NCBI RefSeq assembly: GCF_019008365.1
Contig: NZ_JAHHUL010000004.1
Location: 124,001-188,000 of the forward strand
Direction: 5' to 3'
Length of the DNA: 64,000 bases
From: Phosphitispora fastidiosa
Lineage (GTDB): Bacteria > Bacillota > Thermincolia > Thermincolales > UBA2595
Shown here: positions 17,252 to 47,440 of the stretch, piece after piece
Numbering within the stretch: position 1 is the first letter of the stretch
Layout of the letters: each line of letters opens with the position of its first letter
Program-made: the position numbers and the translations under genes
The notes under the pieces: model-generated
Databases searched by the model: none
The model's input: only the letters and a program-made list of their open reading frames with translations
Told to the model about the DNA's origin: nothing

Positions 17252-17291
17252 AGAACAGTCCAGAACTTAATCCTGGACTGTTCTTTTTTTA
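17252..17291 (+). terminator. Terminator of the small plus-strand gene
   Basis: AGAACAGTCCAG and its exact complement form a 12-bp stem with a 9-base loop, followed by seven T residues. The T tract overlaps the stop codon of the convergent giant gene. Confidence 0.9.
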
Positions 17292-20200
17292 TAATGGTCC
17301 ACCTTTAGTCCTTAGGGCATTGGTTATTGCCTTCTGAACCTTGTAATCATAGTACTTTAACATGTCCTGCACCTGCACATCACTTAATTGTGCTTCAAAA
17401 GGAACATCAGGTATTGGGCTCTGATAAATATATCCCGCTGCCAATTTTTGCAAATAACTCATCCTAAGGTTGAATATCTTTTTCTGTTCCGGTGAAATGT
17501 CAGCGCGTTTTGCAATATCCCTTTGGGCGGCTCGCATATCCGACATTTCCCTGGCAAACATATTGCGAACCGGAATAGAGAGAATTAACCGGACATCTGA
17601 TTCTTTCAGCTTTTTACGAAGGTTTTCATTAACATATGTTGCGGTATCTTCTGCAGATAAGCCTCTTGCCCGGGCCTGCTCTTCCCATTGCTTTTGCCAT
17701 AACCCAGACGATTTATAGATCTGTTCTGCTCTTGCCTTGTCTTCGTAGAACTTATCAACTATCCGGCTACCACCCTCACCGGGACCGTAAATCAATGAAC
17801 CAATAACCGGCCAGTATTCAACCCCTGGCCTATCGTCACCCTTCAGCCACTTAAGCGGGTTTAACGGATTGCTCAAAATGTTGGTCACGGTCTTACCAAT
17901 GCCGCCGAATGAGTTTTTCATAAAGTAGTCAATCATTCTTGGGCTTGGTCCTTTATCAGTAAACACCGCAACAGCCTTCGCCATATTAATGGCAAATTTG
18001 GATGTGCCGGTACTAAACCTGTCCTGTGGCAGCAAGTTTTGTTCCCGTTCCGGTTCAATCGGATTCCCGAAGGAGTCTTTGCCTGAATAAAGGCTAATTA
18101 TTGTATCTATCAACATAGATGTCATGGGAACCCCAAAAGATGTTTTAACAGCTGATTTAAAATCGGTCAACGGTTTCCTTTTGTTGGGTTCATCAGTCAT
18201 GGCCCAATCCAGGAACCTTTCCAGCATATTTGCCGGCAGCGCATATTCGTACGGCTTCGCCAGCGCAATCCGGTAATCTTTGGTCCCCGGTATCGGGAAC
18301 CACCAGTACCGGTCCCGTGACTCCGAAGGCATGTCCTTGTACTTATCATCATCACTTGACAGTGCCCACGCCAGCAGGGTCAATGGCACCATATATATTG
18401 CCATTCTCATTAAAGTAGTATATGGTTTATCCTTGACTTGGCGGCTGAACCGGTAAATACCTTGAATACTGCCCTGCATAAACTGAACCGTCCTGGCATA
18501 CTTCCTAAAACCTTCATGGATACCGTGAAGCCCAAAGTTAACCAGGATTTCACGCGAAGCATAAGCGGCTTCAAGGAGAGCCTTTTCCACATCCGGGGCA
18601 AGTTCATCCGAAACTTCTCCTGCCATAAACTCTTCATAGGACACTCCCAATGGTTTAAGCTCTCTTTTGAGTACAGCTTCAAACTCAGCCAGCCTTGGCA
18701 TTTCTTCAAGAATTCGGAGAGCTTCCAAAGGCGAAGTAACCACCCGAACCAGTGCCCCGGTTGCTGTCCGTTTCCACCCCGGTACTGGAGTTGCCATCAG
18801 ACCATCAGTTACCGATGCCCTCAATGCCCCGTTAATAACTTCCTGTGGTGCAGAACCATAGCCACCGGATTGAACATACATATCCATGACTTCTTGGTTC
18901 ATCCCAATAGCCGTACCAACGCCTTTGATAAAATCAGCTATTAAGGACCGTTCGCCCATGCCGGCCTTAGACTGTACTTTAGACACAATAACATCACGCA
19001 TGATAGCGTTTGTTACATACCGGACGTTGGCCAGGGCACCAAACCGGCCTATCTGGGTCAGGTAAGCAAGAGTTTTGGCAACAATATCAACGGTTATCGG
19101 TTTCATGGAAAGAGCCGCCCGGTAAATGTCCGGAGCCACCCTCATATAAACATGCCGCCCGCCGTGACGTGCCATAAGGATGGTTTCCCGCTGACCAATG
19201 TCGCGCAGACCGCCAGGCATGAACATCCTGATAACCCGTTCTTCATCCTCAATATTTATTTCTCCATCAAAATGTCTGGCCATATCCTCTACGGACACAG
19301 AAACACTTTTAATGGGTGCCTGGATGAAGTCACCGAACAAACCCATGTTAGGCTGCCTAATGGACCCTTCTATGGCCTGCATAATCTTTTCGATTTCTAC
19401 CGCCAGGACTGTATCGTTGAGCCTGGTAATGGAGGCCTCAATAAAATTCATTGTCTGCCCTTCATGGCCCTTAAACCGGCGCACACCCTCACCGGCTGCC
19501 CGCCTATTATTTCCCGAACCATGATACTCCTGCTCACCGACATGATACAAGGGCAGGTAAATATTTGAACCGGCCCGGATATGTTCCGCATCTTCTTCGC
19601 TTATCACTTCACCACGGACCAGCAGGCGCAGGTTAATCTCGCTGAGGATCTCAGCATATTCTTCAATGAGTTCAACCATTTCCGGATACCTTTCGCGGGC
19701 CAAATCAACCACCGTATCAAAATAAGCCTTTGTTTTTGGCAGCTCAAATTGCTTGGCGCCCTCCGATTCTTCCATCACATTGTACCGTTCCTGGTATCTC
19801 ATGGCATGGTATATCCAGTCCATCAATTGAACACCGTGAGGGATTTGCGCCGCCTCTTCGACTATCTCCTGGAGTGAACGTTTCCCAGGAAGAAGAAATC
19901 TCCCGGCTTCATCCCTGGCAGAGCCCGAGAACAGATTAGCAGCTTTTTCCCTGGCTGAACCTGAAACTGCCGCCAACTTAGCTGGGTCAAGTCCTTCATA
20001 TCCCTGCTCGACAGCTGCCCGGTACAGGTCTTTTAGGGGTATAGTAAAGTCTGCTAACTGGAACTGTAGTTTCTTAAACCATGGGATACGGTATTCCTCG
20101 CCCACATTAACCTTAACACGTTCGCCCGGTTTAGCTATAAGATTGGCCATTTGAGCCAGGGGATCTCCTTCAAGGTCAAGCTCTGCAATAGCAAGGATAG

Positions 20201-23200
20201 CATCAAACTGTCCACCAATTTCAGGGTTATTGTCCAGAAATTCATCAAACATTTCAGAAGTAACCGGCGCCATTTCGCGGGCCGTTTTGTTATCAGAGAA
20301 CCACAGCATCAGATATTCGGCAAGCCCCTCCTGAGTTTTCTTGCCTTCCGGAATATCGCCAGGGTACATCTCTTCAGCAATGTCCCACATCTCAGACTTT
20401 TTGGGTTTAAAATTGGCTGCATCCAGAAGGATAAAAGCAATACCGTGACCATGTTCATGGCCCATAACTCGCCAGTTTTCAGTTTTCTGTTTTTTGATTT
20501 TACCGGTTTTGCTATATTTACTGAACGAACCTTCGGTCCCTCTGATATGCCTGCCGGAACGAAGTACCGTATTAAGGAGTTGAGATAGTTTTTCGCCCAT
20601 TTCACGGGCCGCTTTAGGCGAAATATTCTCTGCCCTGGCCGTTAATTCGCTGGGATCAGTAAGCTCTTTTTCGATGGTAGGTGCAGGTTTTTTAGCCTTT
20701 TTCTTCTTTTTAACTTTATGTTTCTTGGCGAAGGCAAATTCTTCATCCTGTAGGTCTTCTTCAATAATCTCTGGTGATTTAGTAGACATTTGGGCCTTTG
20801 TTACGACATACATTCCTGCCTTCTTCTCAATTGTCGCGTCTTCCGGAAACGCTTCCCGGATTTCGTTTTCATAGTCAGCAAAATTCCTGTTTTCCTGCCA
20901 TGTAGATGTACCATCAGCAAATTCTAATTGTGCACCCTTGCCAGACCCATTCCCTTTGTAAACCGTTATTATGGCTTTGCTTCCTGGTTTTAACAGAGAA
21001 TACAGGAAGTCAATTACACTCTTACGTTCTTCAGCAGTAGGAATAACATTTAATACATTATTAAGAGCTACACCGTCAGCACCTTTGTTTTTTTCAATTC
21101 TGGCAAGAACTGATTCATTGTGCTCCGTATCCATGGCATAAGGATCATAAACAAGGTTTTCAATTCCATGTTGAGCCATGAATTGAGTTCCTTTTTCATA
21201 TTTTCCTCCGCCGACATCTGCCACAAGCATTCCCTTTGTAAATATTTTCATTGCAACTGCCTTTTTTAATCCTGCAGCCACCTGGTTTAAAGAAGTTTTT
21301 TGTGGAGAATGAACAAGAGAATATTCATTGGAGGAAGAATTAATGTTTTTGAGTACAGAGTCCGCTTTTTTTCGCACAGATTTGCTTGGCAGCGAAAACT
21401 CTTCATTCACACCTGGCGAAACCATGTCTACCACGGGCCTGTACTTAATTACCTTCTCAATAACCTGGGCTGACATTGCCCCCGTAGGAACGAAAAACCT
21501 AGTTTCCCAATCAATCCGTTCAATAAAAATCCCTTCATTTTTAAGCTGTCCCATATGGGGATAAAGATCCCTGCCAATTAACTCAATTCGGTTTTCTCCT
21601 GAAACCCTGCGCCGTACCATTCTCCACTCGTTAGACAGGTAAATAGTGTAATTCTCTTTAAGTATCTTGTCAGACAACTCAGTCGGGCTTAAGGTTTGTT
21701 TGGTCCTGTCAGCGCCGAGTTTTTTTAGTGTCAGGTCAATAGCCTTTTCAGGAACGATACGTCCCAGTAGCATCCGGCCATCTTCTGTTTTGACACGAAT
21801 TACCCTAACGTGACCTGTCGGCAGCCTATCCCAGATAGGAAGCAGTGCGCCGCTTATCAGGTTAACTTTTTCAACACGAAACTCCGAAACCTTTCCCAGG
21901 GCTTCGTTCCATGCTGTTTCGGCTTCTGATTCAGGGATTTCTCCCCAGTTGCCTTTTTCAAAATCAGCCTTAGATATGTTGTGGCTGCTTGATTTAACCT
22001 GACCTTGAACCTGATAGATTTCTACCACGCTTCCATTTGACAGTGTTCTGTGACCATATCGCTTAACCGCATAAACCCGCTCACTTTTGGTGTTCCTGTA
22101 AAAACCCTTCAGCTTTGGTAATCGTGAAGCATTTTCAAAAGAAACCTTTTTGTTTTTGTGATGTGCCTCCAGTGCAAAATATTTAGTTTCAGCTCCGGAC
22201 GATTCATCAATAAACACGGACTTCTCTTCAGATACAACAACCTTGTCTGCCCGGTAATTCTCTAAACCAACATCAAGGGTCCCATCTGCAATGGCTTTTT
22301 CTACTTTAGCATCAAGTCTTTTTATGAATTCTTCAAAGATTTTGTTTTGCAGTGTAGATTCAAGAGCCAGAATGCGGTTAAGGAATTTGGTAATGTCTCT
22401 CAAATCAGGGTTTTCGTTACTGACGTTTCTATTTTCGTCAAGCATGTTACTAAGGCCCATCTTCGACAGCAACTCTTTAGCGGTAATCCCTTCTATTTGT
22501 CCACCGGCCAAATTCTCATAGAACTGCTGCAGAGCATCCCTGGCTAAATCACTTTCAAGGTTATCCTTGGCACTAAAAAGCCCCTGGCTGCCGGTTTGCC
22601 TCTGTCCCTTTGTCAATGCCCCCAACTGGTCTAATCGCCTGGCAATAGATGAAATAAAACGTTTCTGCCCTTTAAGATTAGTTGTAACCAATACATAATG
22701 AGGGGCATTGGCTTGGTTGGTCCGGTGAGTCCTTCCAAACCCCTGGACAGCGTTATCCGCTCTCCAGCCAGCCTGAATCAAATAGTGAACCCTGCGCCGC
22801 TGATTTTTCTCTTTAAGGGAAGCATGGTAACTGCGCCCAGTTCCACCGGCATCAGAGAACACCAGTATCTTTTTCTTATCGTCAAGAAAAGCCTGAGCGT
22901 CAGCGGAAGCATGTTTTGGTGTTCTTGATTCAAGTTTTGCCTTCATGCGCCCATCATCCGACTCACGAACAACCCTGCGGGTACGTCCGGTAATTTCGGC
23001 AACCATTTCAGTCCCAAACTCATTCAAAATAATCTCCAGCGGGCCTTCCGGCACTTTTAACGCACCCAGTTTTGACAGAAGTTCTTCCTTCATTTCCATT
23101 GCTTCCTGGTTTACAACCGGATTCCCATGACTATCAACCACCGGCCTAGAACGAATATTGCCGTTATCATCTTCATACTCTTCATATTGTTGAATAGGAA

Positions 23201-26200
23201 AACTCTTGTCAAGATACTGCATCAACATATCACGGGGAGTGAGATCTAAATCTTCCAAACTGTCTTCTTCGTTCATTTTGGCAATGGCACGATTCTGAGC
23301 TGCCTCATTAGTGTTAACCAATTGCATTACAACAGCGTTTCCGTTTGCCAAGTCTTTTTTTACCTGCTCTACCACTGAAGGCATCTGGACGGAAGTTAGT
23401 ACCTGATTAAAGAATCTCTGCTGAGCCACCCAAAACTGACCTATGGCCCTGCCCTTGGAGTAACCGTCTTTGCCCTGACCGGTTTCCTCTAATGCTTTAT
23501 TAACGTTCTGCAGGACAATCTGCCATGCTTTAGCCATTTCATCATATATTTCCGTCTGTTCAGGGGTAAGATTATGTTCAAGCGTACCATAGGTTACTCC
23601 GTCATAGCTCAGGTTACGGGCAATATAAGCGCCCATGGCCTTCATATCGCGGGCAACCAGCTCCATTGCCGCTAACCCACCGGCCTGAACCTTGTCGATG
23701 AAATCAAGCTTGTTGGCAAACGGAGTGCCTTCCCCCCAGAGACCCAACCGGTCAGCATAAGCTAAATTAGAAACCTCAGTGGCGCCGGTTGCTGAAGCAT
23801 ATACAATCCTGGCATCAGGTAAGCGTTTTTGCAATTCTATGCCGGCAAGTGCCCTGGTAGAAGGTTTTTTTGCCCCACGTTTTCTTTTTTGGGTTATGCT
23901 GTTCTGCATTTGATGAGCTTCGTCGAAAACAATAACCCCATCGAAATCCTTACCCAACCAGTTTATTACCTGGTCAATCCTTGCAGATTTACCTTCCTTA
24001 ACAATCAGTTCACCGGTTTTAGAAGAACTTAGGCCTTGACCAAGAGTATCATAAGTTGTAAATAAAACCCCGTCCTTTTGTTTGACTGGGGTGCCCATTT
24101 TAACATTGCCTAGCTCAAACAACAGTTTCTTGTCGCCGCCAGTAGCCTCAAAGTGTTCAAGAGAATCATTAAAAAGTGGAGCGTTCTTACTTATCCAGAC
24201 AGCTTTCTTGCGTCCCTGTCTGATATTATCCAAGATAATACCGGAAATTTCCCGGCCCTTACCAACTCCCGTACCGTCCCCAATAAAGAAACCCCTCCTT
24301 GTTCCGTCTGGAAGGGTTTGTTGATGAGCTTGCCCGGCATACACAACAGATTCTAACTGTGCTATTGACAACTTACCTTCACTAACTGTTTCCTTGGGTA
24401 AGTTAGGTGTATATGTAGGTGTTGGAGGTTCTACGGCAGCCATAGCTGCGCTTTGGGCAAGTGCGCCGGGGTGTTGTTTTGCGCCCGGAATCTTTAGTTT
24501 TTGAGGCATATAATCAGTAAAAACAGCATCAGACAATTCCTGATCGGTTTGTTGTACTGCCTCTGACTCTGACTCAACCTTAATCTCCGTTTTTGCGGTT
24601 TTGGCAGGTTTTACTGTTCCGCTTCCCGGCTCCTTGGCTGTTTCTCCTGGAGTGCGTACATCAGTCTTTCCGTCAGGTACTCCGCTGCTTCCAGTGGTGT
24701 CTTCCTGGCCAGTTTCTTTGGATTGACCCACGTTCCCTGCTGGTTCCCCTGGTCCGGGCCCTCCCTGGTCAGAAGGTTCATTGCCTGTTCCGGGTTCCCG
24801 TGGTACAGGAGTTTTTCCACTTGTTGTCTCAGGTCGTGGTGTTCGTTCCTGTTTTCCGGGTTGTTGGGTATTATCTTCCCGCTCTGCAGCCCCCAACTTA
24901 TCAGTTGGTACAGGTACAGTAGGCTCGGGTCCGGTTTCTGGCCCGCCCTGTTCAGTAGGTTTTTCGCTAGCAGGTTTACCGGCTGCCTGTTGAGTCGGTC
25001 TATTCTCTGATGTAATCCGGTCATTCTTAATCGCCTCCAATAAAGGAAGTGCATCTTCCAACGTATCTACACTATTAACAACTGTGCTGTTAATTCCTTT
25101 AGGCAATGGACCTGTTTTGTCAATAACCACCAATTGAACGCCGAAATTAGTGCCATACTTGCTATAATTCTTCCCATTTATGCCTATGTTTGCACGGATA
25201 TTGTAAGTTTCCCGTAGTTTATTCCACCAGCCCTTGAAGTTTGCGGCATTGTCAGACATCCCCTGTCCAACAATCGCCACCAGTCTGCCTCCTGGAGCCA
25301 GCTTCTTTAATGCCTGTTCCATGTGCATGATTGCATTTTTAGTATCATTCTTACTTCTTATTCTTGCGGTCGATGAAAACGGTGGATTCATTATAATAAC
25401 GGTAGGTTTGATATCCTTTGGTAAGACATTGTTTAATTGTTCGGCATTCTCAGTGAATACCTGATCAAATCCCATTTCTTTTAGCACTTCAGCGCGTCTG
25501 GGAGAAAACTCGTTAACGATGACCTCTCTTGCTCCGGCCGATTTTGCAAATACCGCTAACCCACCAATTCCGGCACTGGGCTCCAACACAATATCGTTAT
25601 GGGAAATGTTTGCTACCCATGCGGCAATATACGCTATATTGGGTGGAGTAGAAAATTGCTGCAACCTGTCCTGTTCTTCTGTCCTCTTGGTTTGAGTGGG
25701 GATTGCCTCCAATATTTCCTGCCTGATAGATTCTAAGATGCGTTTAGCCTGCTCAGCACTAACCATCGGGCCAACACTCTTTTTATGTTCCAACAGGTAG
25801 AGGTTAACTCCCAACTCCAAAGCGTCATAAGCATCTTTGGAAGTGTATTTCTTTTCTGCCTGAGTACCCTCAAAGAACCGATCGGCAATCTTAAATAGCT
25901 CAGCGGAAGTGAATTTTTGGCCTTGTACCAGCATATCCTTAACAGCAACAGCCACTTTTCTGCTTGGAGTAGCCCGTTCTTCTGGCTTTGGTTCCTCAGT
26001 AACAGGTTCTTCTTGCTTTGATTGTACCTCATTTTCCCCAGTTTTGGCAACTTCTTCTTGTCTGTCAATTTTTCCCTCTTCTTTTTGTGGCTGCACCTTC
26101 GCATCTGCCTTGCCAGCCTGATAAAACAATTGTGTTAGAAAATGTGGAAATTGTGAATCTATTTCCTGGTCAAAAGGAACATCAATTGTCCTGATGCCCT

Positions 26201-28289
26201 CTTTGCCAGCCTGATACCATTTTTCAAAAAACTGCCTATATGCCTGCACATATGGGTCTTCTGGCTTGTTTAAGTCAGCCATAACATGTTCGTTATTGGC
26301 CCATTTTTTAAAGACATTGTTACCGGTTCTGCCGTAAACAAGAAGTTTTTTGGGTTCCAGTTGTTTTGGTTTTTCTCCGTCAACAGGCTCCTTTGCAGGT
26401 TCTACTGTAGACTCCTTGCCAGATTCCGTTGAAGCCTCTGTTAAAGATTCTTTTGCAGGTTCTGTTGAAATCTCCGCTAATGATTCCGGTTCGGTCTTTG
26501 CCTGTTCCTCTGCGGAGCTAATAGATGGCTGTTGCATAGGTTCAACAGGCTGCTCTACCGGCTGTACAGGAGGCTCTGCTGGCGGTTCTACTGGTTGATC
26601 TGTTGGTTGTTCTACCGGCTGTGGTACAGGCTGCTGTGGTTCAATAGGTTGCTGTACCGGAGTTTCCCCTGGTTGCTGTATGGACTGCCCCGCAGGTTGC
26701 ACCGGCTGAATAGGCTCCGGTTGCTCAGCCGGTTGAGCCTGTTCGCTCTTTTGTTTTTCGACCGCCTCTTTTTCCACATCTGCAACGTCCTGGATTACTT
26801 CTTGCATTGAGTCGCCGACAACCTTATCGCCTTCCTCGGTCCCGGCAAACTCATCGAACACCTGTTTAACTGCTTCTTCTACAGGTGTGCCGGCATCAAC
26901 TTTTTCCTGAACAGCAGTTTCCAGAGACTTTCTGGCTTCTTTTGAAGCCTTATTGTATGCTCTGGTCTGCATTTCATGCTGCAAGGCACCAATAATACCG
27001 GGGCCACCGCCAAGGACCAACCCCTGTGCAATAGATTCCTGCATAGCCGGGTCAAAATTAACTTCGTCACCCAAGGAACTGCGCTGGATTACTTCCTGTG
27101 CGCCTTCTTCCAGTCCTTCAGATGCTCCTGCCATACCAACCCTGCCCGCACCTACAGCTGCTCTTCCCAACTTAGAATCTGCTGCCGCACCAAGCATTCC
27201 CCCTAACCACTTAGGGGCCGGACTAAACATGGCAGCCAATTCCGGCACGTTGGTAACGGATAACAGGGCAGCGTTTTTCAGAAAAGCATCATCAGCAGCC
27301 TGCATTGCCTCTTCTTCCGATAGGCCCCTGTTTTTTGCCTCGGTGTAAACTCCCCCGGCCTCCAGTGCAGCTTCTAACGGTACACCGCTCGAGAGCCCTC
27401 CCAATGTCTTTAATAATTTTGTTCCCCAGTTCCCCAGTGAACCCAGTTTGCCCCATCCGGCAGCTCCGGCTACAACCCCCCCGGCCTCGGCACCCAAAAT
27501 TGTTGGGATAAGGAGGGATGCCATTAGGGGAACGTTTCTCATGACGTTTCTGGTATAAAAACGCGGGTCAGCAAGAGTTTTCCATCCCTCAAACTTAATA
27601 GGCGGCGACCAATCTGGACTAGTATATAAATCTGCGGTATATTCGCCAAACTCACGCATTCCTTTACCGGTTTCACTCAAGCCCTCGATGCCAAACTTGT
27701 CACCAGCCCATTCCATACCGCCACCATAAGACATGGGAATGTTTGAATACATCCCTGCAACAAGTGACTTAAAGGCATCGGTATTGCCAATTGTCACAAG
27801 AGGTTTTTCAATAAAATCTGGCACTGTTTCACCTTGCAGGGACTTATGCAATGCTGTCGGGTTCTCCAGTGTTGGAATCAAAGGGTCTTGGGCATGAACA
27901 ACATCAGAAACCGTTGGAACAGTATTCCCCAGGAAGTCAGGCATAACAGGAGAAGATGGCTTAAATGGCACCGTGCCCTGTGGGACAGAACCTTCTCCGG
28001 GCAATGCCTCAGGTGGAAGGGCAGGCGTTACTGCTTTCTTTTTGAAATAATCAAACCCTCCTGCCGGAACCAAAACAGGGTTGCCGTTTGCGTCCTGAGT
28101 CCACCCGCCTATTTCTTCACTGGGTATGCTGCCAGGGATATTGCCCGGTACGCCCCCTGGAACACCACCGGAAACACCAAAAGCGCTCCCACTTGGAGTA
28201 GGAACGCTTCCACTGTTCTTTTTAAAATAATCAAAACCACCTTCCGGCACCAATATGTCTCTTCCGTATTCATCCTTGATCCAGGGCAT
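17289..28289 (-). CDS. Giant polyvalent virion protein: methylases, helicase, zincin
   Basis: This 3,666-residue protein occupies 11 kb. In order: a duplicated 24-residue motif ending GGFDYFKK (residues about 3-26 and 62-86); Gly/Ala-rich hydrophobic stretches (about 255-430); a Pro/Gln/Val-rich linker (about 520-600); a class I DNA methylase with EPSAGIGG and NPPF near 968; a second low-complexity linker (about 1110-1230); a Strawberry-notch-like SF2 helicase with GTGVGKGREIS near 1340, FDEAHQMQN near 1456 and GFGRTHRTNQA near 1851; a second methyltransferase with VADVGGGKYEKG near 2358; a Lys-rich linker; a zincin with HEHGH near 2611 and EGLAEY near 2655; helical polyvalent-associated regions; and one membrane segment near 3297. 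This matches the phage polyvalent-protein theme (P1 DarB is a known methylase-helicase example) in which an ejected protein shields incoming DNA. Ejection is inferred from its place after the virion genes. Confidence 0.85.
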   Translation of the reverse strand: MPWIKDEYGRDILVPEGGFDYFKKNSGSVPTPSGSAFGVSGGVPGGVPGNIPGSIPSEEIGGWTQDANGNPVLVPAGGFDYFKKKAVTPALPPEALPGEGSVPQGTVPFKPSSPVMPDFLGNTVPTVSDVVHAQDPLIPTLENPTALHKSLQGETVPDFIEKPLVTIGNTDAFKSLVAGMYSNIPMSYGGGMEWAGDKFGIEGLSETGKGMREFGEYTADLYTSPDWSPPIKFEGWKTLADPRFYTRNVMRNVPLMASLLIPTILGAEAGGVVAGAAGWGKLGSLGNWGTKLLKTLGGLSSGVPLEAALEAGGVYTEAKNRGLSEEEAMQAADDAFLKNAALLSVTNVPELAAMFSPAPKWLGGMLGAAADSKLGRAAVGAGRVGMAGASEGLEEGAQEVIQRSSLGDEVNFDPAMQESIAQGLVLGGGPGIIGALQHEMQTRAYNKASKEARKSLETAVQEKVDAGTPVEEAVKQVFDEFAGTEEGDKVVGDSMQEVIQDVADVEKEAVEKQKSEQAQPAEQPEPIQPVQPAGQSIQQPGETPVQQPIEPQQPVPQPVEQPTDQPVEPPAEPPVQPVEQPVEPMQQPSISSAEEQAKTEPESLAEISTEPAKESLTEASTESGKESTVEPAKEPVDGEKPKQLEPKKLLVYGRTGNNVFKKWANNEHVMADLNKPEDPYVQAYRQFFEKWYQAGKEGIRTIDVPFDQEIDSQFPHFLTQLFYQAGKADAKVQPQKEEGKIDRQEEVAKTGENEVQSKQEEPVTEEPKPEERATPSRKVAVAVKDMLVQGQKFTSAELFKIADRFFEGTQAEKKYTSKDAYDALELGVNLYLLEHKKSVGPMVSAEQAKRILESIRQEILEAIPTQTKRTEEQDRLQQFSTPPNIAYIAAWVANISHNDIVLEPSAGIGGLAVFAKSAGAREVIVNEFSPRRAEVLKEMGFDQVFTENAEQLNNVLPKDIKPTVIIMNPPFSSTARIRSKNDTKNAIMHMEQALKKLAPGGRLVAIVGQGMSDNAANFKGWWNKLRETYNIRANIGINGKNYSKYGTNFGVQLVVIDKTGPLPKGINSTVVNSVDTLEDALPLLEAIKNDRITSENRPTQQAAGKPASEKPTEQGGPETGPEPTVPVPTDKLGAAEREDNTQQPGKQERTPRPETTSGKTPVPREPGTGNEPSDQGGPGPGEPAGNVGQSKETGQEDTTGSSGVPDGKTDVRTPGETAKEPGSGTVKPAKTAKTEIKVESESEAVQQTDQELSDAVFTDYMPQKLKIPGAKQHPGALAQSAAMAAVEPPTPTYTPNLPKETVSEGKLSIAQLESVVYAGQAHQQTLPDGTRRGFFIGDGTGVGKGREISGIILDNIRQGRKKAVWISKNAPLFNDSLEHFEATGGDKKLLFELGNVKMGTPVKQKDGVLFTTYDTLGQGLSSSKTGELIVKEGKSARIDQVINWLGKDFDGVIVFDEAHQMQNSITQKRKRGAKKPSTRALAGIELQKRLPDARIVYASATGATEVSNLAYADRLGLWGEGTPFANKLDFIDKVQAGGLAAMELVARDMKAMGAYIARNLSYDGVTYGTLEHNLTPEQTEIYDEMAKAWQIVLQNVNKALEETGQGKDGYSKGRAIGQFWVAQQRFFNQVLTSVQMPSVVEQVKKDLANGNAVVMQLVNTNEAAQNRAIAKMNEEDSLEDLDLTPRDMLMQYLDKSFPIQQYEEYEDDNGNIRSRPVVDSHGNPVVNQEAMEMKEELLSKLGALKVPEGPLEIILNEFGTEMVAEITGRTRRVVRESDDGRMKAKLESRTPKHASADAQAFLDDKKKILVFSDAGGTGRSYHASLKEKNQRRRVHYLIQAGWRADNAVQGFGRTHRTNQANAPHYVLVTTNLKGQKRFISSIARRLDQLGALTKGQRQTGSQGLFSAKDNLESDLARDALQQFYENLAGGQIEGITAKELLSKMGLSNMLDENRNVSNENPDLRDITKFLNRILALESTLQNKIFEEFIKRLDAKVEKAIADGTLDVGLENYRADKVVVSEEKSVFIDESSGAETKYFALEAHHKNKKVSFENASRLPKLKGFYRNTKSERVYAVKRYGHRTLSNGSVVEIYQVQGQVKSSSHNISKADFEKGNWGEIPESEAETAWNEALGKVSEFRVEKVNLISGALLPIWDRLPTGHVRVIRVKTEDGRMLLGRIVPEKAIDLTLKKLGADRTKQTLSPTELSDKILKENYTIYLSNEWRMVRRRVSGENRIELIGRDLYPHMGQLKNEGIFIERIDWETRFFVPTGAMSAQVIEKVIKYRPVVDMVSPGVNEEFSLPSKSVRKKADSVLKNINSSSNEYSLVHSPQKTSLNQVAAGLKKAVAMKIFTKGMLVADVGGGKYEKGTQFMAQHGIENLVYDPYAMDTEHNESVLARIEKNKGADGVALNNVLNVIPTAEERKSVIDFLYSLLKPGSKAIITVYKGNGSGKGAQLEFADGTSTWQENRNFADYENEIREAFPEDATIEKKAGMYVVTKAQMSTKSPEIIEEDLQDEEFAFAKKHKVKKKKKAKKPAPTIEKELTDPSELTARAENISPKAAREMGEKLSQLLNTVLRSGRHIRGTEGSFSKYSKTGKIKKQKTENWRVMGHEHGHGIAFILLDAANFKPKKSEMWDIAEEMYPGDIPEGKKTQEGLAEYLMLWFSDNKTAREMAPVTSEMFDEFLDNNPEIGGQFDAILAIAELDLEGDPLAQMANLIAKPGERVKVNVGEEYRIPWFKKLQFQLADFTIPLKDLYRAAVEQGYEGLDPAKLAAVSGSAREKAANLFSGSARDEAGRFLLPGKRSLQEIVEEAAQIPHGVQLMDWIYHAMRYQERYNVMEESEGAKQFELPKTKAYFDTVVDLARERYPEMVELIEEYAEILSEINLRLLVRGEVISEEDAEHIRAGSNIYLPLYHVGEQEYHGSGNNRRAAGEGVRRFKGHEGQTMNFIEASITRLNDTVLAVEIEKIMQAIEGSIRQPNMGLFGDFIQAPIKSVSVSVEDMARHFDGEINIEDEERVIRMFMPGGLRDIGQRETILMARHGGRHVYMRVAPDIYRAALSMKPITVDIVAKTLAYLTQIGRFGALANVRYVTNAIMRDVIVSKVQSKAGMGERSLIADFIKGVGTAIGMNQEVMDMYVQSGGYGSAPQEVINGALRASVTDGLMATPVPGWKRTATGALVRVVTSPLEALRILEEMPRLAEFEAVLKRELKPLGVSYEEFMAGEVSDELAPDVEKALLEAAYASREILVNFGLHGIHEGFRKYARTVQFMQGSIQGIYRFSRQVKDKPYTTLMRMAIYMVPLTLLAWALSSDDDKYKDMPSESRDRYWWFPIPGTKDYRIALAKPYEYALPANMLERFLDWAMTDEPNKRKPLTDFKSAVKTSFGVPMTSMLIDTIISLYSGKDSFGNPIEPEREQNLLPQDRFSTGTSKFAINMAKAVAVFTDKGPSPRMIDYFMKNSFGGIGKTVTNILSNPLNPLKWLKGDDRPGVEYWPVIGSLIYGPGEGGSRIVDKFYEDKARAEQIYKSSGLWQKQWEEQARARGLSAEDTATYVNENLRKKLKESDVRLILSIPVRNMFAREMSDMRAAQRDIAKRADISPEQKKIFNLRMSYLQKLAAGYIYQSPIPDVPFEAQLSDVQVQDMLKYYDYKVQKAITNALRTKGGPL

Positions 28290-36607: not shown

Positions 36608-37186
36608 ATGAAACGCATATTAAGTTTTCTGTATAAAAAAATCGTCTTGTTTTGGTTAAAATTCAGAAACCGTAATTTGAAAATACTAGGTTCTGTTCAT
36701 ATCAGTGGATATCCTGAAATATCGATTGGCAAAGACTCTAAATTAATCATTGGCGATAATGTTACATTAAATTCTAGCAACCATGATTATCACGTCAACA
36801 TGTTTGCCCCCGTTAAATTACTCGCAAAGCGTAAAGGTGCTACAATAATTGTCGGGGCAAACACAAGGATTCACGGCAGTTGCATCCACGCCTTTGAAAA
36901 AATCTCAATCGGTAAAAATTGCTTGATAGCCGCGAACTGCCAGATATTTGATGAAAGCGGACACAGTATTTCATTTGATGATACCACCAACAGACTTAAA
37001 ACCAGAGGAAAAACCAAACCAATAGTGATAAGGGATAATGTTTGGATTGGAACCGGATGTATAATCCTTCCCGGAGTAACCATTAAAGAAGGTAGCGTAA
37101 TAGCCGCTGGAAGTGTGGTTACAAAAGATGTGCCAGCCTACTGTTTAGCCGGGGGAAATCCCGCCAAGATTATACGGCAACAATAA
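36608..37186 (+). CDS. Hexapeptide-repeat O-acyltransferase, lysogenic-conversion candidate
   Basis: A 192-residue left-handed beta-helix acyltransferase. Imperfect hexapeptides run through residues 45-180 ([49 protein letters not shown]), and the end carries [16 protein letters not shown], as in CoA-dependent sugar acetyltransferases. It is plus-strand inside a minus-strand virion operon, with its own extended -10 promoter and ribosome site AAAGGTAGG. It abuts the convergent spike gene with no gap. It probably modifies the host's surface polysaccharide in the lysogen, blocking adsorption by related phages (inference). Confidence 0.85.
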
Positions 37187-38562
37187 CTATAAACTTAGTG
37201 TGGTTATCTCGTTATCTGTTTCAATAAGTCCTTCACAAGCTATTGAGTAATCAGGATTAACTCCAGCTATCTTGTTGTATCCGCAAAAAGCATTATCCGC
37301 ACTAATAGATACTCTAAAACTAAGCTGGTGTTCAACGTAAATGTCATTGCCTTCAAAAATCATTTCAGGCATAAGCACGTATGGAAATTCTATCACCCTG
37401 TAAATCGTATTTATTTCTGCTCCCATCATAATCACGGCTTTATTTATATACTCTTTACTGACATACGCCTTGTTGTTTTTTATCACCCTAACACTGTCTG
37501 GAACAATGCCTTTTACCTTGAATATAATATTATCGCAGGACAATGGGTCAGTTGAGTCAATTGCCAGTTTTACATTGTTACGGTAGACATTATTTTCGCA
37601 ATATACCTTCTGTCCTGTCAAATACGCAGAATAAACCATTGCATGCTCATGGTTAGTTTTAATTCCTTCCACCCAATTATAGGTGTAATGGATTTCTTTT
37701 GCTTCGGACAACACCATGCAATTGTAAACGGCTCCATCTCCATCAAGATACCAGTCATCATCATTAACCATTATATTGCCCGAAACCATAAGCATTTCTT
37801 TGTTATTTGTTCTCTCGCTTGTTAAGCCATCATACAAAAAACAACTTGAATTTTTAATTATGTTGTCTTGAATCGTGCATAAACCATAACTGTAATTCTC
37901 TATATTGATAAACTGAGCGGCATATATGACGGCATAGTCAAGGGCAGTCGGATTAATTATTTTGTTATCTGTGATGTTGATACTTCTGAAAACTGAATCA
38001 GATTCTACGGGGCAGGTGGCTCTAAATCCAACCATGTAGCCACTTGTTTTGTTGTTTTTAAATGTAAATTCTTCGATATCAAAAACATTTTGTTCGGTAT
38101 CTGTGTACCCGGCCATAATTCTTGGCTGAAACAATGTACTTTCATTTATGAATTGAATATTTTTAATTAAAACTGTTTTCGTGTCCTGTGTCAGTCTGAA
38201 CAAAACAGGGCGAACATCAGTAATAACAGTATTACAGTAAAATATCAAGGAACCATTATCGCCACAAAGCAATAAATCACCGACTGCATTGTCTTCCGTC
38301 ATATTAATAGGGTCAATATAATAAGTATCATCAATATACACTTCTTGTCCCGTCTTTGTTGCTAAAATCAATGCGTCACAATTTACTGCGGCTTTAGTGC
38401 TATCATTGGGAACAGCGCCAAATTCCTTGATATCTATAACTACTTTTTTTTGGAAATGGTAATTACTGCTCCATTCGTCAGCGTTTTTTGCTCGACCACT
38501 TCCATATCGACATTACCTTCTTCATATGTATCACCAACATTTAAAACAGAAACATCAGTCAT
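37187..38562 (-). CDS. Beta-helix tail spike made by predicted -1 frameshift
   Basis: A 40-codon frame opens at the ATG 38562 (after GAGGAAGGTG, overlapping the upstream stop) and stops at 38440-38442 after TCC AAA AAA AAG TAG. The A-AAA-AAG heptamer there is the classic bacterial -1 slippery sequence. Moving back one base gives AAA AAA GTA and continues without a stop to 37187, a 458-residue product. The -1 part begins VVIDIKEFGAVPNDSTKAA, the usual entry strand of pectate-lyase/spike beta-helices, which would be lost if translation began at the internal TTG at 38371. The rest is an Asn-rich beta-helix. Alternatives are a phase-variable A8 tract or a sequencing error. Confidence 0.7.
38440..38562 (-). 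CDS. Short zero-frame product of the spike gene
   Basis: The unshifted product is 40 residues (MTDVSVLNVGDTYEEGN start, TISKKK end). Its sequence looks like the short N-terminal virion-binding or linker peptide of a spike rather than a free protein. It would be produced by ribosomes that do not shift at the A8 tract. Confidence 0.5.
   Translation of the reverse strand: MTDVSVLNVGDTYEEGNVDMEVVEQKTLTNGAVITISKKK
38443..38451 (-). promoter_or_regulatory. A-AAA-AAG slippery frameshift site (A8 tract)
   Basis: Eight A residues followed by G on the minus strand, read AAA AAA AAG in the zero frame and directly followed by TAG. This is the same heptamer used in E. coli dnaX. A TGGAG element lies about 19 bases upstream, further than a typical stimulator. 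Confidence 0.65.
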
Positions 38563-39845
38563 TATACCACACCTTCTTCCTCAACAAGTAGCACTATTTT
38601 ACGCTTATTGGTTTGGGTAACATCTGAGGAGTTTTTGTAATAAATTTTTAGCGGAGTGTCATTGTCGAACGAGACTGCAAATAATTTTGTTAAAAAGTCG
38701 GCTAAATCAGACGGACTTGAAGTTACTCCGGTCCCTGCCTGATTAGAAAATATCAAATTACTGCTGTATGTAGTTGTAATTATTCCGATGCTAACATCTA
38801 GTGTAGTATGTGGTATAAACATAGCAATATAATGTGTGCCGGTAGTGCCGCCAGGAGCAGTGACGCTTGCAGAAAAACCTATTATTTTATATTTTTTCCC
38901 CGTTGGTGGAGTGACAGTTATTGTTTCACTCGAACCTGCTGCTATCGCAGCATCTGACGAAGCGTCGATAACTGATACTGCAATATTTCTTCCCGTTACT
39001 TCGACAGGCTGGGAGCCGGTCACCGTTGTCGTCACGTTCTTTTCCGCCACCGCTATTTCATACTGAGTCCCGGCTACAACAGATATTCCATCTGCTCCAA
39101 GCGTAAACGGTATGGCGGCCCCACCTATGGGTATGTTTCCTGCAACAAAAACAGCATCGACAATAAACTTATCTGACACACCAACAGTATTAGCAATTAA
39201 ATTTTGCATATCACCTGCTGCCAAGAGCCGCGGGTCACCCAAGCCGTCCAAGTTGACAGTGATGGTCAGCACTGTACCTTCCAGAGAGGCAATTGTATCC
39301 CCAGTTGTATCTACACCCTGCACAATCTCAACCGAGTAGGCATTACCTGCTTCACCATCAAGGTCTCCCTGGCAGCGGATGGTAACCTGGCCTTCCGCGT
39401 CCTGGCCGGAACCAATCACAGCCGATGCCGCTACCGGGTCAAGAATAGCTGGGAAGATAAAGGAATTTGCCACGCTTCCAGTAATTCTTCGGAAATAGTC
39501 TACCCCATCGATGGTGATTTTGACTACCTTGCCGATAAGTACATCAGCTTCGAAGTCTTTTGTAGAGTCGATTACCATTGTTTCTGTTCCGTCCGTAGCG
39601 GTTCCCCGAATAGTACTTACTTCCGCCGGAAGCGAACCTGCGCCGCCACCCTGAAGCTGTTTAATAATACCTTTAAGCAATGCTGTAACGCTTGCACTTG
39701 CTGTCGGATCAGTTACAGCTGCAGCATTTAATGCTCCTGTTAAGGTTTCCAGATCAGGGCAATCTGCCGCAAATCCATAACTGCCATCACCCAAGTCAAC
39801 CAGCTTGATTTTGTTTCCACCTATATTGAGATAATCATCAGCCAA
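38562..39845 (-). CDS. Phage structural protein with beta-rich C-terminus, unknown
   Basis: A 427-residue protein rich in Thr, Val, Ala and Gly. It starts at TTG after GGGAGG. Residues 1-70 are mixed helical; the rest alternates short strands (TIRGTATDGTETMVIDSTKD, GQVTIRCQGDLDGEAGN, KKYKIIGFSASVTAPGGTTG). It lies between the capsid-region genes and the spike, so a decoration, head or base-of-spike protein is likely. No specific family was recognised. Confidence 0.65.
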   Translation of the reverse strand: MADDYLNIGGNKIKLVDLGDGSYGFAADCPDLETLTGALNAAAVTDPTASASVTALLKGIIKQLQGGGAGSLPAEVSTIRGTATDGTETMVIDSTKDFEADVLIGKVVKITIDGVDYFRRITGSVANSFIFPAILDPVAASAVIGSGQDAEGQVTIRCQGDLDGEAGNAYSVEIVQGVDTTGDTIASLEGTVLTITVNLDGLGDPRLLAAGDMQNLIANTVGVSDKFIVDAVFVAGNIPIGGAAIPFTLGADGISVVAGTQYEIAVAEKNVTTTVTGSQPVEVTGRNIAVSVIDASSDAAIAAGSSETITVTPPTGKKYKIIGFSASVTAPGGTTGTHYIAMFIPHTTLDVSIGIITTTYSSNLIFSNQAGTGVTSSPSDLADFLTKLFAVSFDNDTPLKIYYKNSSDVTQTNKRKIVLLVEEEGVV

Positions 39846-46049: not shown

Positions 46050-46583
46050 TCACTCCTTGGGCTTAGGATGTTCCTTCTTGACATGTGCCGCCAGCTTTTG
46101 CGGCGTGTCAAACGGCTCAGCATCACAATGGGCACATTGATACTTCTTTGGTTCGGGTATGGGCTGTTTGGGTAGTTCAATCTCCAGGAGTTTACATATC
46201 CCTGTCTTAACTGCTTCGTCAATCTCAACTACATTGAGAAGCTCTACCACCGACTGTATCTTAGTCTTCATCTTAGCCTGCTGTTCTTTTTTCTCGGCCT
46301 CCCGGATGCTGCCAACAAGCTCCTGATAATCCTGGTCTGCCATGACAAGTTCCTTTATCCGGCCCATGTGCCTTTCGATAAGCTCAGGCGTAGCCAGGAT
46401 TGATTCCACCAGCTTATCAGCACAATCGGAACAGAGGTTCCGCATCACTGACAATGGACCATCCGGCCTGCCGATGTGGTACTCTGACTGGGTGAGGCAG
46501 TTATATGTCTCGCACGGTATTTGATATGTGTGGGGGAATATCTGGCATTGATTAATCGGTAATGGGGTTTTGGGGTCTGCCAT
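46050..46583 (-). CDS. Phage protein with C-terminal C2H2 zinc finger
   Basis: A 177-residue protein. Cysteines near the N-terminus (CETYNC, LCSDC) suggest a first zinc site; the middle (about 65-125) is a charged helix; the C-terminus (YQCAHCDAEPFDTPQKLAAH then VKKEH) is a textbook C-x2-C-x12-H-x4-H finger. This is rarely so clear in bacteria. It lies in the packaging-to-portal segment, overlapping the upstream stop by one base. It may bind DNA or another virion protein. Confidence 0.7.
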   Translation of the reverse strand: MADPKTPLPINQCQIFPHTYQIPCETYNCLTQSEYHIGRPDGPLSVMRNLCSDCADKLVESILATPELIERHMGRIKELVMADQDYQELVGSIREAEKKEQQAKMKTKIQSVVELLNVVEIDEAVKTGICKLLEIELPKQPIPEPKKYQCAHCDAEPFDTPQKLAAHVKKEHPKPKE

Positions 46584-47020
46584 TATTCAACCACCATCCA
46601 ATCTTCCATAAGCATGTCAGTCTGAGACGGAAACCAGGGAACACGTGAGCCGTTCGGATATGCCGGATGTCCCACCGGATACTCTATATACAGATAAGGT
46701 AAAGTCATTTTGCTGTGTTCATCCGGTGACTGCATCAGAATCCACATGTTTTTGCCATTCCAACCCTTACGGGCAAGTTTACAGCCTTTTTTCAGTGCTT
46801 CAATAGCCAGTCCAAAAGTTAATCGATCAGCCTTACGGTACGCTGCCTCAAACTGCGCCTTCGGTGACCAACTTATATACCCATCAGGATATCTCACCAG
46901 ATAACCGTTGCCTTGTTCGTCTGCATTTGAGGTGTCGATGGGCCGTTGTAATGTGCGGCTAGCTTCCTCCGCTGTCATGCGTTTTGCCATAATGATTTTG
47001 GTTCCAATATGTTTTTTCAT
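46583..47020 (-). CDS. DUF2829 protein, Tad2-like anti-defence protein
   Basis: A 145-residue protein. Residues about 66-145 carry the DUF2829/Tad2 pattern: LTFGLAIEALKKGCKLARKG, WNGKNMWILMQ, then PWFPSQTDMLMEDWMVVE. Tad2 proteins bind and sequester signalling nucleotides such as 1''-3' gcADPR made by Thoeris defence, and some bind CBASS cyclic nucleotides. The first 65 residues (KHIGTKIIMAKRMTAEEASR, then GYLVRYPDGYISWSPKAQFE) are a second small phage domain. The start follows AAGGAGGT. Activity against a specific system is inference from the family. Confidence 0.8.
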   Translation of the reverse strand: MKKHIGTKIIMAKRMTAEEASRTLQRPIDTSNADEQGNGYLVRYPDGYISWSPKAQFEAAYRKADRLTFGLAIEALKKGCKLARKGWNGKNMWILMQSPDEHSKMTLPYLYIEYPVGHPAYPNGSRVPWFPSQTDMLMEDWMVVE

Positions 47021-47033
47021 TATTTACCTCCTT

Positions 47034-47098
47034 AAAATAAAAAAGGGGTATGCAGGCTACAAAGCAGACAAATTCTGCTCTATAGTCTACATACCCCT
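47034..47098 (-). terminator. Long structured terminator before the Tad2-like gene
   Basis: AGGGGTATG and CATACCCCT close a hairpin of about 55 bases with an inner AGCAGA/TCTGCT stem, followed on the minus strand by TTTTTTATTTT. It would terminate, or partly attenuate, transcription arriving from the terminase genes. Confidence 0.8.
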
Positions 47099-47118
47099 AT
47101 CTTCTTAGATTCGGGTTG

Positions 47119-47244
47119 TTATTTAGTTGTCGAATACTTGCTTACATGGACCCGCTTACCGCGGGGGGGGGTGCGTTTCCGCTGCTTGGGTCCATTTTTC
47201 TTCTTTTTGCCGGTGAAGTGTCTGCAGTTATTTGGTTGAGCCAT
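47119..47244 (-). CDS. Very basic 41-residue protein
   Basis: This short frame reads MAQPNNCRHFTGKKKKNGPK, then an Arg/Pro-rich middle and a Thr/Ser tail; about a third of residues are Lys or Arg. Support comes from its start context, GGTGAAGCCAATGG, which is repeated exactly at the start of the next gene upstream (47440), and from the tight operon spacing. Its middle contains a run of nine C (nine G on the plus strand, 47163-47171). No function can be assigned. Confidence 0.5.
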   Translation of the reverse strand: MAQPNNCRHFTGKKKKNGPKQRKRTPPRGKRVHVSKYSTTK

Positions 47245-47440
47245 TGGCTTCACCACACCTCTTGCTATCGGACATTATTTTAATCTCAAAATCACTCACT
47301 GGAATTTCCTCTGTATTGCATCCCGGACAGTAGGTATAATGTTTCCCGTTTACTTTTTTTGTGAGTCTGCTCTGTTGTATCTGTAACTCAGACTGTATGT
47401 AACCGCAATCAGGACACGCGTAAACAAAAACATCATCCAT
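47228..47440 (-). CDS. Small zinc-ribbon phage protein
   Basis: A 70-residue protein with CPDC near residue 10 and CPGC near 40, the spacing of a two-knuckle zinc ribbon, and a polar C-terminus. The start MDDVFVYACPDC uses the ATG at 47440, overlapping the upstream gene by a few bases; a longer frame upstream duplicates coding sequence of its neighbour. Confidence 0.65.
   Translation of the reverse strand: MDDVFVYACPDCGYIQSELQIQQSRLTKKVNGKHYTYCPGCNTEEIPVSDFEIKIMSDSKRCGEANGSTK

Follow-up and report, generated by a model that had tools for sequence, protein, structure and literature searches.

Does the spike-like gene that lies in two reading frames at this locus carry a programmed frameshift, or was it split by an ordinary single-base slip in a run of A? 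This question was raised by the first-pass annotation of the window (the whole stretch of 64,000 nucleotides analysed here), and it was addressed by means of codon usage, homologues, a related phage and the behaviour of A runs in the host's other genes.

Two coding frames meeting at an A8 tract

The spike-like gene and both of its frames were located on the minus strand of the window, a point which the annotation had left unstated; the 40-codon frame which it described, with its ribosome site and its ending AAA AAA AAG TAG, was indeed present (Table 1). A codon-usage score trained on the other genes of the same prophage and expressed as log-odds per codon reached 0.37 in frame 0 before the A8 tract, then 0.32, 0.18 and 0.16 in successive blocks of the -1 frame after it, while the remaining frames scored around zero or below and contained many stops. 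The signal thus changes frame exactly at the tract, which means that both parts are coding and that the frame is broken there. The -1 frame reads GTA GTT ATA GAT ATC and so on, and remains open up to its stop at 37187; its first ATG, GTG or TTG is TTG 38371, within the entry motif. That reading one base back gives 418 stop-free codons and restores the expected spike entry was in this way borne out, both by codon usage and by homologues aligned from residue I3 (see below). The 0-frame part, for which homologue searches found no relatives, is probably the N-terminal segment of the spike, and it may play a role in virion attachment.

Table 1. Features of the spike locus, with positions in the window
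Feature	Position	Strand	Remarks
Upstream ORF, 427 aa	38562..39845	-	Cassette-specific; its TAA stop shares bases with ATG 38562-38560 of the spike gene (TAATG)
Shine-Dalgarno-like purine-rich stretch	~38572..38583	-	GGAAGAAGG-type; 5' of ATG 38562; assigned from the consensus
0-frame part	38443..38562	-	40 codons, MTDVSVLNVGDTYEEGNVDMEVVEQKTLTNGAVITISKKK; ATG 38562-38560; codons 38-40 AAA AAA AAG (38451-38443); TAG 38442-38440; coding-like codon usage in frame 0 only
A8 tract	38444..38451	-	Exactly 8 A; last six A and G38443 give the 0-frame heptamer A AAA AAG
-1-frame part	37187..38443	-	418 codons and stop; begins VVIDIKEFGAVPNDS; putative beta-helix-like spike body
Hexapeptide-repeat acyl/acetyltransferase gene	36608..37186	+	Pfam Hexapep; convergent, directly abuts the spike stop

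Homologues and fold of the spike body

Three distant homologues of the -1 part were found (24-27% identity, E 2e-15 to 4e-19), situated on two MAG contigs, the one in L011 appearing to be the same gene as that in L069. All three align from I3, are free of any frame interruption, and have neither the lysine run at the junction nor the 40-residue leader; the entry strand and helix (I3, G9, N13, N21) are invariant among them. Because these homologues read through the entry strand, the downstream part is the coding sequence of a single gene, out of frame with its start, and the alignments confirm VVIDIKEFGAVPNDS as the natural entry of the spike domain. Uninterrupted homologues, named by the annotation as evidence that would speak against recoding, were thus encountered at long distance; no close homologue of the spike was found in IMG/VR, phage records, plasmids, genomes of relatives and of the phylum, or GTDB contigs, the scan of the latter returning distant spike homologues only.

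The designation of the gene as a beta-helix spike stood for its spike-like coding sequence and less firmly for its fold. The -1 part had no Pfam match, its fold model was strand-rich at low confidence (mean pLDDT 44), the best PDB matches of this model were pectate lyases, at a weak E of ~0.04, and the L011 homologue matched Beta_helix weakly (E 0.064), so that a beta-helix is plausible, if weakly supported; the matches of the structure search were too faint to build on. The spike's only relatives (L068 1302-5723; L069 487-2340) are secreted-looking proteins of Bacillota MAGs, in surroundings that look like exopolysaccharide clusters, with FemAB-like and O-antigen-ligase-like neighbours. This suggests that phage spikes and the loci for cell-surface polysaccharides have exchanged sequences.

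A variable cassette in a podovirus-like prophage

The window consists of host chromosome (uvrA, uvrB, mgtE, ctpA) and a prophage that is podovirus-like in its portal, major head, terminase and SU10-adaptor-like genes and that carries a large serine recombinase at its far end (L016 10065-11546). Outside the split gene, this prophage looks intact. Its closest relative, the IMG/VR contig L003, has the head module in common with it (83% DNA identity, 95% for the major head protein) and differs from it completely in the interval that separates this module from the connector genes. There, the window carries the 427-aa ORF, for which a search found no relatives, the split spike and the convergent hexapeptide acyltransferase, probably a surface-modifying (conversion) gene, while L003 carries other structural ORFs, a convergent acyltransferase-3 gene (L003 13704-14609, minus strand) and, at the spike locus, a different and uninterrupted 676-codon candidate adhesin of DUF2341/GH43-like type. 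The spike cassette was also absent from more distant relatives of the prophage. As the two cassettes are wholly different, the locus would represent a swapped host-recognition cassette, with the putative surface-modifying gene travelling along. In each phage, the late operon encloses an acyltransferase gene of convergent orientation beside an adhesin gene, both genes differing between the two phages; it seems that the spike is exchanged together with the surface-modifying enzyme, as one cassette.

Other features of the prophage were recorded alongside. A Tad2-like (Thoeris anti-defence 2) domain protein (46583-47020, minus strand) is encoded in the late region, adjoining the portal module, and is kept in L003. 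Downstream of the connector and tail genes lies a giant polyvalent protein of 3666 aa with Strawberry-notch helicase-type domains and LPD38 (17289-28289, minus strand). At 47030-47260 (minus strand), a strong hairpin with T6 after it (z -5.0) is conserved in L003, and Rfam gave no match in the window, this hairpin included; the small basic ORF adjoining it (MAQPNNCRHFTGKKKKNGPKQRKR...) contains a C9 run (47163-47171) which is shorter and interrupted in L003. A second frameshift, suspected at about 47.03 kb from the comparison with L003, was rejected, the difference being an upstream non-coding extension of an L003 ORF.

The slippery heptamer and the length of A runs

The heptamer A AAA AAG (38449-38443) stands in slippery phase (X XXY YYZ) in the 0 frame with TAG immediately next, and it was rightly recognised in the annotation as a known slippery sequence; it is of the dnaX/IS3 type. 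Its presence at the break is nevertheless a matter of arithmetic, since an in-frame AAA AAA AAA G that has lost one A must read AAA AAA AAG. In a control set of 483 kb of stretches from the same assembly, the window included, 389 kb were coding sequence, and the heptamer occurred in slippery phase of intact ORFs 42 times, versus 33 expected from synonymous shuffles (range 24-44), which makes it frequent in the host's intact genes, with no sign of avoidance. No stimulatory Shine-Dalgarno was found 6-17 nt upstream of it, the range searched in PMC4066793, the nearest SD-like sequence being a GGAG at a distance of 20-23 nt. Downstream, the RNA is unremarkable and, in a model of pseudoknot-free folds, folds no better than its surroundings (best value -0.217 kcal/mol/nt, z -1.05 to 0.4, as good at 13% of gene positions). 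Two genes for tRNA-Lys(UUU) represent the sole lysine tRNA type among the 47 tRNAs found, with no CUU, although unassembled repeats could hide another; such a set, with UUU as its only lysine anticodon, would permit slipping on AAG. Given that loss of one A would suffice to create it, its frequency in intact genes and the lack of a convincing stimulator, the slippery heptamer at A8 is not special.

The length of the tract was in turn compared with A and T runs in host coding sequence, again versus synonymous shuffles and with small numbers. Runs of A5 to A7 were enriched and A8 was not depleted (19 observed versus 24.1 +/- 4.3 expected), whereas A9 was depleted (2 versus 8.6 +/- 2.6), A10 and longer runs numbered 0 versus 3.3 expected, and T9 0 versus 4.0. 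The host therefore avoids coding A runs from nine bases onwards, A8 falling under this length, and nine is the commonest threshold in Baranov et al. (PMC1088944). A8/A9 is thus near the slippage threshold and permissive for slippage. From a mechanistic point of view, a longer in-frame tract would be an unstable state, since A9 is depleted and A8 is not; that A8 is tolerated and the next length avoided fits, within the limits of these small numbers, a tract that loses bases more than an evolved A8 signal.

Origin of the frame break

The evidence leans, with modest confidence, towards an indel that arose by replication slippage within the spike gene of this podovirus-like prophage, leaving an allele that is off or leaky and possibly reversible. 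DNA-polymerase slippage in the homopolymer would have changed the length of the A tract by a single base and split the gene; the sequenced allele would be mainly off, yielding the 40-residue N-terminal peptide with, at most, a little full-length spike made where RNA polymerase or the ribosome slips on the tract; the same slippage in DNA could restore the frame. In line with this are the switch of coding signal at the tract, the uninterrupted distant homologues, the ordinary heptamer, the lack of a convincing stimulator, the depletion of A9 and the uninterrupted adhesin of L003. GeneTack likewise attributed most frameshifted genes that fall in no homologous cluster to indels or sequencing errors (PMC3711429). 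Against it stand the intact-looking prophage and the stop-free 418-codon frame, which functional recoding predicts equally well, together with a tRNA set that would permit slippage on AAG and the single allele seen. Such intactness means that the lesion must be recent or tolerated, and we infer that the break is a recent mutation which lowered spike production.

Functional recoding would instead make the tract an evolved signal, full-length spike being produced in a regulated amount by ribosomes shifting -1 at A AAA AAG or by RNA polymerase slipping so as to add a base to the A8 run. The canonical heptamer in correct phase, the 0-frame stop immediately 3' of it, the tRNA-Lys(UUU) set and the well-preserved -1 frame all agree with this, A_AA.A_AA.G is among the most efficient motifs in E. 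coli when stimulators are present (PMC4066793), and poly-A rescue of an interrupted gene was proven for Citrobacter tssM, at about 20% on A11 (PMC4256274). However, neither a Shine-Dalgarno nor a stem-loop stimulator was found, the host does not avoid the heptamer in intact genes, A8 is shorter than the run length it does avoid, the 40-residue product has no evident role, and IMG/VR, phage records and GTDB scans provided no close homologue to show conservation, the distant ones being without the site. We consider recoding unlikely, although worth keeping in mind; the specific proposal of the annotation, that programmed frameshifting fixes the ratio of short peptide to spike, found no support in the heptamer's expected origin, frequency and context, and variation of tract length, its other suggestion, fits better. 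A spike produced only through recoding at A8, metered per virion, or flipped on and off by tract length would be the first recoded or poly-A-switched phage spike, a reading to which we give slightly less credit still. A sequencing or assembly error, with a true tract of another length and an intact spike gene, is more doubtful. Homopolymers are the usual site of such errors, and the assembly is a 239-contig draft with a single copy of the gene; by contrast, all 29 A/T runs of at least 8 inside intact ORFs keep frame over 483 kb of the same assembly, the one further candidate among runs of this length is a T9 on L053 where no clear single gene is split, and the head genes align in frame with the relative phage. 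The assembly is thus not riddled with homopolymer errors, though it may hold a single one at this tract. Very improbable, lastly, is a pair of separate genes, the 40-aa peptide gene being followed by a spike that initiates at TTG 38371 or at a rare start near the junction: a 394-codon ORF does begin at this TTG, but starting there would drop the entry strand and helix invariant in homologues, no SD was seen 5' of it, and no ATG, GTG or TTG lies between the tract and it. An ordinary slip in a hypermutable run is the likeliest cause of the break, and nothing found shows a programmed switch.

Comparison with known systems

In phages of the Shigella phage Sf6 type, which are temperate podoviruses, the tailspike gene has an O-acetyltransferase gene as its neighbour. 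The spike gene studied here similarly lies beside a putative surface-acylating gene in a temperate podovirus-like prophage, although the sequences are unrelated and the present acyltransferase is convergent, of the hexapeptide type, and modifying by prediction only. With -1 frameshifting of the dnaX/IS3 family, the locus has in common the heptamer A AAA AAG, its phase and a 0-frame stop soon after, but neither an SD at 6-17 nt nor a convincing stem-loop nor a conserved family was found here. It also resembles the poly-A transcriptional frameshifting of Citrobacter rodentium tssM1 in its A run, early stop and intact downstream frame; tssM1, however, has A11 and two proven functional products, whereas the A8 gene is known from its sequence, and, unlike in transcriptional slippage genes, A8 is not avoided in host coding DNA.

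No case of programmed frameshifting in a spike was found in the open-access literature, in line with what the annotation had stated, and recoding, if true, would carry frameshifting beyond tail chaperones, capsid proteins and tube proteins to a protein that selects the host. A spike that is programmed or poly-A-switched would indeed be new, while the frame break as such is a further instance of a known phenomenon. The case also cautions against reading programming into a slippery heptamer where the frame break itself sits in an A run. The closest parallel to a slip is lambda stf, where, of 19 sequenced mutants that had lost the fibre in a biofilm-like setting, 15 carried frameshifts, all but one in short homonucleotide runs (PMC2762979). 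As in lambda PaPa and in selected fibre-less mutants (PMC2762979, PMC10695390), an adsorption-protein gene of a temperate phage is out of frame, the break here falling within a homopolymer run in the coding sequence of a single adhesin. Unlike in stf, this break lies near the start, at codon 40, and in a natural prophage, where a loss of function is predicted; if it is a slip, it adds to the adhesins lost through homopolymer indels, in a natural prophage as in lambda under selection.
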